From: Pseudomonadota bacterium
GTDB lineage: Bacteria > Pseudomonadota > Alphaproteobacteria > Rhodospirillales > Magnetospirillaceae
Assembly: GCA_021782815.1 (NCBI GenBank)
Contig: JAJXUO010000007.1
Span: 1 to 64,000, forward strand
DNA length: 64,000 nucleotides
Direction of reading: 5' to 3'
Every line of letters begins with the position of its first letter. The first letter of the stretch is position 1. Under the pieces are notes generated by a model, which ran no database searches, was not told the origin of the DNA, and was given only the letters and a program-made list of their open reading frames with translations. The translations under genes and the position numbers were made by a program. Below, piece by piece: positions 1 through 55,386 of this stretch.

Positions 1-3
1 CGA

Positions 4-87
4 CGCGCGCCTGATGGCGCGAAGCCAAGGGTTTCGGAGAAACCCGCCCGGCGCATGAGGGTGCAGTGATCGGTTCCGATCACTGCA
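4..87 (+). repeat. Structured intergenic repeat, copy A
   Basis: First seen copy of the window's hairpin repeat family. Hairpin 1 pairs CGCGCC (6-11) with GGCGCG (16-21) around TGAT. The fixed motif AAGCCAAG follows (22-29). Hairpin 2 pairs GGGTTTC (29-35) with GAAACCC (39-45) around GGA. Then comes GCCCGGCGCATGAGGG (46-61). Hairpin 3 pairs TGCAGTGATCGG (62-73) with CCGATCACTGCA (76-87) around TT. The other copies keep this layout but use different stem sequences. The copy may extend left of the window. Function unknown. Confidence 0.75.
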
Positions 88-151
88 ATTTGGTATAAGG
101 CCGCGGCCAAGCAATCCGGAGGACTGCACCCGGCGAGGGGCATATCAAAGC

Positions 152-6916: not shown

Positions 6917-7190
6917 CATATATCCCGGTGATCGGAACCGATCCCCGGGTGCCCCTCAATCGCCGGGCGCGGCTTCCAGCCGCTTGGCTTTCCTCCGCTT
7001 GTGGGCTGCGCCCATCCGCAGCAAAGCTGCGGACCGCCCTCCGGGCGTCGGCTGCCAAAGGCAGCTCCCCTCCTGCGCTAACGCTGTCCGCCTTGCGGCG
7101 TTCGTCTGCGACTCCCGTCGTCGCTACGGGGACCGAGGGTGGGCCAGCCGCATCCTGATGAGCATCCTCATCAGGATGCGGTATAATATT
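6917..7190 (-). repeat. Structured intergenic repeat, copy B (hairpin array)
   Basis: Longest copy of the repeat family, in minus orientation, filling the gap between the 48-residue gene and hrpB stop to stop. Read on the minus strand it starts with an outer hairpin (7148-7181: 14-bp stem CCGCATCCTGATGA, 6-base loop). A chain of small hairpins follows, including GCTGCC/GGCAGC and CCGCAGC/GCTGCGG (7016-7032) with 3-base loops. Then come AAAGCCAAG, the core hairpin GCGGCT-GGA-AGCCGC (6969-6983), GCCCGGCGATTGAGG and the end hairpin at 6924-6949, whose 12-bp stem has one mismatch. Copy C is the same element with the middle removed. Confidence 0.75.
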
Positions 7191-22846: not shown

Positions 22847-23013
22847 TACCGCATCCTGATGAAGATGCTCATCAGGATGCGGCTGGCCCATTGAGGGCCC
22901 CGCAGCGACGACGGAGCGTGAGCGCAGGAGGAAAGCGGAGGAAAGCCAAGCGGCTGGAAGCCGCGCCCGACGATTGAGGGGCACCCGGTGATCGGTTCCG
23001 ATCACCGGGATAC
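22847..23013 (+). repeat. Structured intergenic repeat, copy C
   Basis: Shorter copy of element B in plus orientation, filling the gap between the convergent cobM and methyltransferase stops. The outer hairpin CCGCATCCTGATGA (22849-22862) pairs with 22869-22882 around AGATGC. After a body with AGCGACGACGGAG and GCGCAGGAGG come AAAGCCAAG, the core hairpin GCGGCT-GGA-AGCCGC (22950-22964), GCCCGACGATTGAGGGG and the end hairpin CCCGGTGATCGG/CCGATCACCGGG (22984-23009). The outer and core hairpins are base-for-base those of copy B apart from loop bases; the end hairpin is the same with a mismatch in B. Confidence 0.8.
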
Positions 23014-29082: not shown

Positions 29083-29117
29083 AAACGCCCCCCTTCCCGG
29101 CGGGAAGGAGGGCGTTT
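29083..29117 (-). terminator. Rho-independent terminator after thiolase gene
   Basis: A 17-bp hairpin with one mismatch (arms 29083-29099 and 29101-29117). On the minus strand it is followed by a T-run (the A-run at 29080-29085 of the plus strand). It terminates the thiolase transcript and stands just before the exporter gene. Confidence 0.8.
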
Positions 29118-29176
29118 CCAAACAAAGCTTAATATGTCCCTCGCCGGGCGTCACATGGAACGCTCGGCGCTCACAT

Positions 29177-30349
29177 CTAGCGTTCGATGGCCACGGCGAC
29201 ACCCATGCCGCCGCCGATGCACAGGGTGGCCAGACCCTTCTTGGCGTTGGTCTTCTGCATTTCATGCAGCAGGGTGACCAGCACGCGGTTGCCCGAGGCG
29301 CCGATGGGATGGCCGAGGGCGATGGCGCCGCCGTTGACGTTGACCTTGGCCACGTCCCAGCCCATGTCGCGGTTGACGGCGATGGCCTGGGCGGCGAAGG
29401 CCTCGTTGGCCTCGATCAGATCGAGATCGTCCACGCTCCAGCCGGCCTTGGCCAGGGCCTTCCGCGAGGCCGGGATCGGGCCGGTGCCCATGATGGAGGG
29501 ATCGACGCCGGCGGTGGCCCAGGAGGCGATGCGGGCCAGGGGGGTGAGGCCGCGCTTGGCCGCTTCCGCCGCCGTCATCAGCATGACCGCCGAGGCGCCG
29601 TCATTGATGCCCGAGGCGTTACCGGCGGTGACGCTGCCGGCCTTGTCGAAGGCGGGGCGCAGCTTGGCCAGCGAGTCGGCAGTGGTGCCGAACTTCGGAT
29701 GCTCGTCGGTGTCGAAGAGCTTTTCCTCTTTCTTCACCACGATCTTGACCGGCACGATCTCGTCCTTGAACTTGCCGCCCTTGATGGCCGCCTCGGCCTT
29801 CTGCTGCGAGCCCAGGGCGAAGGCGTCCTGCTCTTCGCGGCTGATACCCCACTGCTTGGCCACGTTCTCGGCGGTGATGCCCATATGGGTGCCCGAGAAG
29901 GCGTCGGTCAGGCCGTCGTTGATCATGGTGTCCACCATGGCGGCGTTGCCCATCTTGGTGCCGGCGCGCAGGTAAACGGCATGGCGGGAATTGCTCATGC
30001 TTTCATGGCCGCCGGCGATGACGATGCTGGCATCGCCGTTCAGGATGGCCTGATAGCCCAGGGCCACGGTGCGCAGGCCCGAACCGCACACCTGATTGAT
30101 GGTCCAGGCCGGGGTTTCGATGGAGAGGCCGGCCTTCAGGGCCGCCTGACGGGCAGCGTTCTGGCCGTCACCGGCCGCCAGCACCTGGCCGAAAATCAGT
30201 TCGGAGACTTCGGCGGCCTCAACCTTGGAGCGGTTCAGCAGCTCGCGGATCACCACTTCGCCCAGACCGGCGGCGCTGTAGGACGACAGGCTGCCGTTGA
30301 AGGCGCCGATCGGCGTGCGGGTGGCGGCGACGATAACGATATCGGACAT
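29177..30349 (-). CDS. Acetyl-CoA acetyltransferase (biosynthetic-type thiolase)
   Basis: A 390-residue thiolase condensing two acetyl-CoA to acetoacetyl-CoA. The nucleophile Cys is in [10 protein letters not shown] (about residue 88), the catalytic His in GHPIGASG and the second Cys in LCIGGGMG. The length and the PhaA/AtoB-like sequence fit the first step of polyhydroxybutyrate synthesis. A PHA-synthase-like gene lies just upstream on the same strand, 159 bp away, and supports that role, although the partner reductase phaB is not in the window. AAGGAG precedes the ATG. The gap holds AT-rich promoter-like sequence, so it may have its own promoter. Confidence 0.93.
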
Positions 30350-36559: not shown

Positions 36560-36631
36560 GCGCCCGCGCAACCGTTTGCGCGAAAGCCAAGCTGGCGGCC
36601 GGCCCGCGCCCGGCGATTGAGTGGACATATG
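36558..36631 (+). repeat. Structured intergenic repeat, copy D1
   Basis: A 74-bp unit overlapping the helicase stop. Hairpin 1 pairs GCGCAA (36566-36571) with TTGCGC (36576-36581) around CCGT. GAAAGCCAAG, a degenerate core hairpin, GCCCGGCGATTGAG and TGGACATATG follow. It matches D2 at 69 of 74 positions; all five differences are in the core hairpin. Confidence 0.8.
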
Positions 36632-36660
36632 GAACCGGCGCAGCCGGTGACTGGCGCATT

Positions 36661-36734
36661 GAGCGCCCGCGCAACCGTTTGCGCGAAAGCCAAGCTGGCG
36701 GAACACCTGCGCCCGGCGATTGAGTGGACATATG
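36661..36734 (+). repeat. Structured intergenic repeat, copy D2
   Basis: Direct repeat of D1 after a 29-bp spacer, with an identical hairpin 1 and flanks. The core hairpin has a GAA loop and two mismatched pairs. A separate hairpin CAATCGG/CCGATTG (36745-36764) with a 6-base loop follows. Confidence 0.8.
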
Positions 36735-36819
36735 AAAACCAAGACAATCGGCGTCGCCCGATTGCCCTGGGGCAGGGTGATCGCATATGGAGGCCGCTTT
36801 ATGCGGCTGACTAGCCCGT

Positions 36820-36911
36820 TGAGGGCGCCGGAGCGTTGCCGGAGCGGTAACGCGGAGGCATAAGCGAGGACAGCCAAGCTGGCGGAACGCCAGCGCCCGG
36901 CGCTTGAGGGA
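36820..36911 (+). repeat. Structured intergenic repeat, copy D3
   Basis: A diverged third copy. Hairpin 1 is GCGTT/AACGC (36833-36853). CAGCCAAG follows, then a perfect core hairpin GCTGGCG-GAA-CGCCAGC (36878-36894) and GCCCGGCGCTTGAGGGA. It is followed by CAGGGTGA/TCACCCTG (36924-36951). No gene is seen in 36560-37033; the rest of the stretch is mosaic repeat sequence and the trpS leader. Confidence 0.75.
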
Positions 36912-37033
36912 CAATAAAGACGCCAGGGTGAGCGCAAATGCGATCACCCTGTGCCCTGGGGTGAGCACGCTTGACCACTCCCCTGGTTTGGAGTACCTCC
37001 CAGCCGTTCCATCCGCTTAGGAGACAGACGTTC

Positions 37034-53954: not shown

Positions 53955-54017
53955 AGGTCTTTCAACCCCTGGACAAGCGGACGGCGTCTTTCTATGATGC
54001 CGCCCACATACAGATGA

Positions 54018-54226
54018 TCCCCGTGGGAGAGCGTGGCCGGTGACGGCCGCCGCCGAAGGAGCAACCGCCCCTGGAAACTCTCAGGCCAAAGGACCGCGGG
54101 GGGATGGCTCTCTGGAAAGCAGGCGACGAACGCTGTTTGGCGCCTCACCGAAGATGAAAGCCGGAGCAGGGCGGGTTTATCCCGCCGGGCCCGGCGAATC
54201 TTTCAGGTCATAAGGACAGAGGGGGG
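54018..54226 (+). promoter_or_regulatory. Tandem glycine riboswitch
   Basis: Two consecutive glycine aptamers precede gcvT. The first shows GGGAGAGCG (54024 on), CCGAAGGAGCAACCGCCCC and AACTCTCAGGCCAAAGGACCGC (to about 54102). The second shows CTCTCTGGAAAGC (54108 on), CACCGAAGATGAAAGCC and ATCTTTCAGGTCATAAGGACAGAG (to about 54226). These match the conserved core of the gcvT RNA element. Glycine binding is expected to turn on the glycine cleavage genes. No obvious terminator lies between aptamer 2 and gcvT, so control may be at translation initiation. Confidence 0.93.
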
Positions 54227-54276: not shown

Positions 54277-55386
54277 ATGAGCACCGATCCGTCCCTGTCG
54301 CGCACCGCGCTTTACGATCTGCATCTCGCCCTGGGCGCCAGGATGGTGCCGTTCGCCGGCTATGCCATGCCGGTGCAATATCCCAGCGGGGTGCTGGCCG
54401 AACACACTCACACCCGCGCCGCCGCCGGTCTGTTCGACGTTTCGCACATGGGTCAGGTGGTGGTGCGCGGCGAAGGCCGCGCCGCCGCCCTGGAACGGCT
54501 GGTGCCGGGCGATCTCCAGGCCTTAAGCCCCGGCCAGATCCGCTACACCATGTTCACCAACGACCAGGGCGGCATTCTCGACGATCTGATGGTGGCCCAT
54601 GCCGGCGATCATCTGTTCCTGGTGGTCAACGCCGCCTGCAAGGCGCAGGACATCGCCCATCTTGAGGCCGGACTGGCCGGCCGGGCCACGGTGGAGGTGC
54701 TGTCCGGCCGCGCCCTGCTGGCCCTGCAGGGCCCGGCGGCGGTGACGGCGCTGGCCCGGCTGGCGCCCGAGGCCGCCGCCATGGGCTTCATGCGCTGGCG
54801 TCTCCTGGAGGTGGCCGGCATCCCCTGCTTCGTCAGCCGCTCGGGCTATACCGGCGAGGACGGTTTCGAGATCTCGGTGCCCGATCACGCGGCCGAAACC
54901 CTGGCCCGCGCCCTGCTGGCCCAGCCCGAGGTCAAGCCCATCGGCCTCGGCGCCCGCGATTCCTTGCGCCTTGAAGCCGGTCTTTGCCTGTATGGCGCCG
55001 ATCTCGACCCCACCACCACCCCGGTGGAGGCGGCGCTGACCTGGACCCTGTCGAAGCGCCGCCGCGCCGAGGGCGGTTTTCCCGGCGCCGCCGTGGTCCA
55101 GGCGCAGCTGGCCGAGGGGCCGCGCCGCCTGCGCGTGGGCCTGAAGCCCGAGGACAAGGCCCCGGCCCGCGCCCATACCGTGGTGACCGACGAGGCCGGG
55201 CGGCCCATCGGCGAAATCACCAGCGGCGGCTTCGGCCCCAGCGTCAACGGCCCGGTGGCCATGGGCTATGTGGAGGCGGCTTTCGCCCAGCCCGGCACGC
55301 CGGTCAGGCTGGTGGTGCGCGGCACCCCGCGCCCGGCCCGGGTGGTCACGCTGCCCTTCGCGCCGCACCGCTATCACAAACAGTAA
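54277..55386 (+). CDS. gcvT: Glycine cleavage system T protein (aminomethyltransferase)
   Basis: A 369-residue T protein that moves the aminomethyl group from the H protein to tetrahydrofolate, releasing ammonia. [36 protein letters not shown] and [15 protein letters not shown] are the family motifs. The start [14 protein letters not shown] at 54277 is supported by GAGAG; the upstream TTG lies next to the riboswitch. It is the first gene of gcvT-gcvH-gcvPA-gcvPB and is controlled by the riboswitch. Confidence 0.96.

Follow-up and report, generated by a model that had tools for sequence, protein, structure and literature searches.

The hairpin repeats found at several places in the 64,000-nucleotide stretch of DNA analysed here (the window) are mobile, non-autonomous intergenic DNA of many alphaproteobacteria. 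They probably belong to a superfamily of modular build, made up of short mobile repeats that are non-coding and lie between genes, in which transposases would move the frames while the hairpins may be exchanged between copies, repaired, or selected at the DNA level. The constant part of this superfamily would be a core of the form GCCAA-[hairpin, GNA or GGA(N) loop]-GCCCGGCGNNTGAGG, which often has additional hairpins ahead of it.

A sequence-only reading of the window had proposed six copies (A, B, C, D1, D2 and D3), and all of them exist at the places claimed. A covariance model (R1), built from 60 loci hand-picked among 144 listed loci and drawn entirely from non-host genomes, recovers the six with E values from 1.4e-11 to 8.5e-6, the next matches in the window lying at E 0.0026, 0.059, 0.12 and 0.96. 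The copy list is thus right in its six positions and needed correction in two details, as copy C is in reverse orientation (minus strand) and the contig begins inside copy A. The search of the host and its relatives that had been proposed as a check has returned many further copies, which in the host are mostly intergenic. In the 118 contigs (3.44 Mb) of the host genome, GCCCGGCGATTGAGG, a motif of 15 letters, occurs with up to two mismatches at 257 places versus 6 for the reversed control, and the pattern GCCAAGN{11,20}CGCCCGSCGNNTGAG has 229 exact matches versus none. Within 1.10 Mb of this genome, 127 of 130 cores fall outside predicted genes. The exact pattern is present in 59 of 99 genomes, the host included (46 of 55 within the host family, 13 of 44 elsewhere in the order), with a total of 1386 matches versus 2 for the reversed control. 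A scan of contigs from other genomes yielded at least 117 pattern stretches. Among the matches listed, seven (L073, L076, L119, L135, L143, L158 and L165) were rejected as probable chance matches with poor stems inside predicted genes; they were excluded from alignment A1 and are included in the cross-species orientation, stem and second-hairpin counts. With these seven set aside, nine of the listed stretches belong to Sphingomonadales by title, and the remaining ones carry Rhodospirillales-type names or come from unassigned alphaproteobacterial or proteobacterial bins.

Copy A (1-95, plus strand) matches R1 and is a class I element with a TACC...GGTA frame, whose left part is missing because the contig starts there (the window and contig C59 share their first base). 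Its core spans 24-59 and its right end, GGTA, lies at 92-95, followed by TAA at 96-98, which resembles the TNA duplications found elsewhere. The end of copy A is overlapped by a probable further, degenerate copy (61-138, plus strand; R1 E 0.0026), with GCCAAG at about 107 and CCCGGCGAGGGGC behind it. Copies C and B, both R1 matches, are class III elements. Copy C (6921-7183, minus strand, ends judged by eye) has a longer middle part, a core at 6955-6988 and a TACC start at 7183 on the minus strand, its other end being degenerate and without a clear duplication. In copy B (22847-23012, plus strand; core 22945-22978), TACC comes after the TAA stop that closes the gene upstream, and the right end is degenerate (GGGATA), without a matching duplication. 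A degenerate unit ending GCCCGGCGAGGGACA lies on the minus strand at about 29113-29177; it is lacking at the orthologous position in G001, which belongs to the host's genus and shows about 90-93% identity over the window region. The D1-D2 tandem pair (36560-36769, plus strand) contains cores at 36586-36621 and 36689-36724, 103 bp apart; its right end, CCGATTGCCCTG, is of the CAGGG/CCCTG type and its left end is missing. Into this right end is inserted D3 (36773-36951, plus strand; core 36873-36908), a complete CAGGG...CCCTG element bordered on the plus strand by a 10-bp target duplication, TGCCCTGGGG, with its left copy at 36763-36772 and its right copy at 36952-36961.

The same core is found in elements with unrelated ends. 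Class I elements and their relatives start with TACC, end with GGTA and are flanked by a 3-bp TNA duplication. Counted over candidate end pairs rather than elements, this duplication is present in 22 of 28 pairs in the host, 18 of 30 in other species and 5 of 13 in G001, versus shuffled means of 6.9, 5.2 and 1.7, respectively. The base flanking ATACC...GGTAT agrees in 35 of 37 rows versus 12.5, the rows representing 34 elements, three of them in both orientations. The second frame starts with CAGGG, ends with CCCTG and is flanked by an exact 10-bp duplication, detected in 5 of 9 candidate end pairs in the host and 7 of 8 in G001 (versus 0.5 and 0.9). Some end pairs have no clean duplication, as is the case for copy B and for a nested element described below. 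Complete class I elements measure 129-201 bp, about 150 bp being usual for the TACC/GGTA form, and CAGGG elements mostly 159-183 bp, or some 175 bp. Since cores are found in both TACC/TNA and CAGGG/10-bp elements, one core is carried by two unrelated transposon frames. Among the 130 host cores in 1.10 Mb, 28 lie in a TACC frame, 13 in a CAGGG frame and 11 next to a right CAGGG-type end only, while 42 belong to tandem arrays and 36 are single, both without a recognised frame; these arrays and unframed single cores lack the terminal inverted sequences and target duplications of the framed elements. The core also occurs in head-to-head inverted pairs. By the search used, 12 of 53 class I left ends have no core; on inspection by eye, a few of these 12 prove to be variants of the core, and four or more have both ends and no core. 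It follows that the core is not needed for the TACC frame to be there, and, because core-less copies still carry both ends, the core would be a passenger of this frame. A coding function was considered and rejected: a reading frame through some class II units ends at the conserved TGA, but, as judged by reading, copies have spacers of several different lengths between the fixed motifs (11 to 20 allowed), so that the frame is broken from one copy to the next.

Comparison with G001 establishes that the repeat copies move. The D site is empty in G001, where 5 bp stand in place of 410 bp, and at the B site G001 carries another subtype, oriented alike. By reading of the 16 aligned core-bearing sites, which are not a random sample because the G001 stretches were mostly picked around G001 copies, the core is present in one genome only at 11 (at one of these with a remnant in the other genome) and in both at five, with type or orientation differing in four of the five. 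Moreover, a class IV element sits inside a class II element at two places (L272 and L278). At L272, the nested element has the flanks TGA/TACC...GGTA/TGA within a sequence known in its uninterrupted form; at L278, the duplication is mismatched. The nested elements belong to a sister subtype that ends CGCCCGGCGAGGGAC rather than CGCCCGGCGNNTGAGG, seen in the host and G001 at L272, L278 and, for example, L023 (about 617-652).

It had been proposed that the stems change in sequence while staying paired, and this is strongly supported by stem counts, shuffles and alignment covariation. Between the fixed flanks, 102 of 149 distinct stems are fully paired versus fewer than one in shuffles, namely 78 of 111 in other genomes (among the matches listed, the seven chance stretches included), 13 of 22 in the host and 11 of 16 in G001. 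In a 60-row alignment, 93 cells of the helix are changed on both sides, the shuffled mean being 37.5, and the covariation score of the helix, 0.69 versus 0.04-0.16 for slid controls, is reached by none of 500 shuffles. The invariance of GCCAAG and CGCCCG in the alignment is due to their being part of the search pattern. The stems of D1 and D2 are imperfect, as had been described. The second hairpin proposed ahead of AAGCCAAG is also real: of 149 stretches upstream, 69 have a stem of at least six pairs, versus 2.0 among shuffled ones, and its loops are mostly of four letters, the last being T. The loop of the main hairpin is conserved in kind. The GNA triloop first reported is typical of the host and G001, most loops of the host genus being of this kind, whereas GGA or GGAN loops prevail elsewhere, the most frequent being GGAT, GGA, GGAC and GGAG.

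How the stems have come to differ while remaining paired may have more than one answer. Ninety pairs of equal-length perfect arms differ at a single position and represent single compensated steps. In Azospirillum sp. RU38E, with 130 pattern matches, elements with near-identical outer hairpins have differing inner hairpins in mixed combinations; such mixing in otherwise like elements points to exchange of whole hairpins, and part of the stem differences looks like the result of such exchange between copies. Hairpins could also stay paired if imperfect palindromes are repaired when the DNA is replicated. More tentatively than for the movement of the frames, we infer that paired hairpin cassettes may be swapped between copies by recombination, and that imperfect hairpins may be turned into perfect palindromes by repair at replication, or eliminated by DNA-level selection for the hairpin.

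As for the enzymes, transposases acting in trans would move the frames, one of ISAs1 type serving the CAGGG elements and another one the TACC elements. The host encodes an ISAs1-family transposase in an element whose ends begin CAGGGC, and CAGGG-type ends with 8-10 bp duplications are features of ISAs1 elements. This insertion sequence (L307, about 1381-2650; ends CAGGGCTCCGAA) is cut by the contig end, and its ends share about six letters with those of the CAGGG elements. An autonomous partner of the TACC frame was not found in the roughly one third of the host genome searched. DDE_Tnp_1 transposases were considered for this role and rejected, as none of four host matches (one below the cut-off) is flanked by matching TACC ends within the stretches of host sequence covered; the IS5-type match has other ends. 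A recurrent neighbouring gene was likewise discarded as mobiliser: the commonest nearest cluster lies near copies at seven loci, and the top 25 neighbour clusters, from host and other-species loci, are common families, none transposase-like by its first residues. Carriage by phages or plasmids was sought by blastn with a class I element, without a match in either collection. The pattern was found in 83 stretches of IMG/VR contigs, including prophage-like and, by reading of their proteins, gene-transfer-agent-like clusters. In this collection, L329, L333, L381 and L370 show head-to-head core pairs, about 165-190 bp from start to start, those at L329 and L333 being located between genes resembling gene-transfer-agent structural genes. 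L313, L362 and L364 are parts of one 47,865-bp contig with 21 pattern matches, mostly tandem, in a prophage-like region, and its match spacing agrees with that of contig C20 of G099 (Azospirillum sp. RU38E).

The strong covariation would also be expected if the copies were structured cis-acting RNAs located in 3′ or 5′ untranslated regions, maintained because the folding of their transcripts is selected and spread because they are useful to host genes, an explanation we hold to be improbable. The initial proposal, that structure is selected in RNA or in single-stranded DNA, stands as far as pairing is concerned. Selection on single-stranded DNA may apply, and the RNA part draws no support from mispairs, strand folding and cross-species orientation. 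The G-T over A-C excess expected for RNA is not seen in the main stems, with 24 G-T versus 18 A-C mispairs (p=0.44; stems with more than three unpaired positions were excluded beforehand), nor in the second hairpin (5 versus 4). The two strands of copy B fold alike, with folding z values of -6.71 and -6.77. Between co-directional genes, counted across species, 34 copies lie with and 30 against the direction of the genes (among the matches listed, with the seven chance stretches counted). The host leans mildly the other way, toward RNA: counted by locus, 26 copies lie with and 11 against co-directional genes (p=0.02), a bias that passive insertion alone does not explain. The conserved place and orientation of different subtypes at the B site of the two species also fit an RNA role, but presence or absence at other orthologous sites, together with target duplications, speaks against it, as does the lack of an Rfam match to a known RNA. 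As for gene context, host copies by locus number 23 in convergent and 22 in divergent gaps, and host gaps of at least 60 bp number 60 and 129, so that convergent gaps look favoured; the cross-species copies number 41 and 17 (among the matches listed). The motif TGAGG ahead of start codons is a further point in favour of a cis-acting element. ATGs located 6-15 nt past TGAG begin a reading frame of 100 or more codons in 28 of 52 cases, versus 6 of 39 and 4 of 34 at greater distances, and the most frequent ATG offset is 11 (13 of 151, 6 of 28 and 8 of 110 copies in three groups). Some genes thus probably rely on the GAGGG end for ribosome binding. In a subset of loci, such as L446, L430 and L425, the unit fills the gap between co-directional genes, with TGAGGG at ribosome-binding distance before the ATG. 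Under the reading as mobile DNA, insertions between genes would be tolerated, and the terminal TGAGGG could serve a near downstream gene in this way.

Another reading, which we regard as possible and somewhat unlikely, makes the core itself the unit: an independent selfish or functional hairpin, read as folded single-stranded DNA by a non-RAYT enzyme, lodged in at least two transposon types, with stems swapped as paired cassettes, would constitute a REP-like system across several orders of Alphaproteobacteria. That the repeats have already been described under another name, as GTAG/CGTC REPs moved by RAYT or as a rhizobial-type mosaic repeat, seems very improbable. It is true that, in the accessible text of PMC3733652, CGTC repeats are common in alphaproteobacteria and mostly arranged as head-to-head dimers, and that the host has one Y1_Tnp gene with a class I core (L009, 2978-3008) some 1.2 kb downstream. 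But the hairpin is flanked by GCCAA and GCCCGGCG, in part because the search pattern contains them, instead of by the tags GTAG or CGTC, and its stems differ from the CGTC form reported in that text, in which the first pairs are A-T. The Y1_Tnp gene of L009 (about 1360-2180), the only host match, is bordered by other repeats, TTACGGTGACAGTTTACT, three direct and one inverted, that are unrelated to the hairpin family. Mobilisation by RAYT was rejected on these grounds and for lack of co-occurrence: Y1_Tnp is present in 22 of 59 genomes with the pattern and 13 of 40 without it (Fisher p=0.67), in 18 of 39 versus 17 of 60 at a threshold of five copies (p=0.087), with p=0.61 at 20 copies, and it is not matched in G036 or G048, which hold 133 and 98 copies. 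The six motif strings were not found in the literature searched. Rfam matched the window only with a glycine riboswitch, the copies themselves giving a chance miRNA match at E 0.36, and eight other loci have no recognised match at the core. The riboswitch consists of two tandem aptamers (54014-54223; 71.9 and 41.3 bits) ahead of a predicted gene at 54277.

The preferred account, that of a modular mobile superfamily, describes an abundant kind of repeat for which no description was found in the libraries searched, and in which one hairpin module is common to unrelated transposon frames. Against this account stand the TACC partner not found in about a third of the host genome, the shortness of the ISAs1 end match, the many host cores outside any recognised frame, the end pairs with no clean duplication and the orientation bias of the host copies. 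The many paired-stem variants present inside single genomes form a data set for asking whether pairing is kept by selection, recombination or replication repair. They also carry a warning, as strong covariation among copies of a mobile repeat alone is no evidence of a functional RNA.

With respect to known systems, the earlier statement that no named family has this layout agrees with Rfam and the literature searched. Novelty had been made dependent on the absence of a match to a known REP or MITE class; the repeats are of the MITE kind, and they do not match the GTAG/CGTC REPs. To judge from the accessible parts of PMC3116915 and PMC3733652, REPs, BIMEs and REPINs are alike in occurring as intergenic singles, tandem arrays and inverted pairs with varying stems and fixed tags, whereas the units described here are larger, have several hairpins and other tags, and lack association with a Y1 transposase. 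The repeats share with MITEs their short length, non-coding nature, many copies, inverted ends and target duplications; they differ in that one hairpin core is common to two unrelated frames and that most host cores lie in neither frame in complete form. Rhizobial intergenic mosaic elements (RIMEs) are mosaic palindromic repeats known from Rhizobiales. They resemble the present family as mosaic palindromic repeats of alphaproteobacteria and are set apart by their known occurrence, the family found here being mainly of the Rhodospirillales type with some Sphingomonadales (among the matches listed). The accessible part of a MITE review (PMC10969869) contains none of the terms alphaproteobacter-, Sinorhizobium, ISAs1, RIME or Brucella. 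The framed copies are accordingly classed as a new MITE family whose shared core is unusual.
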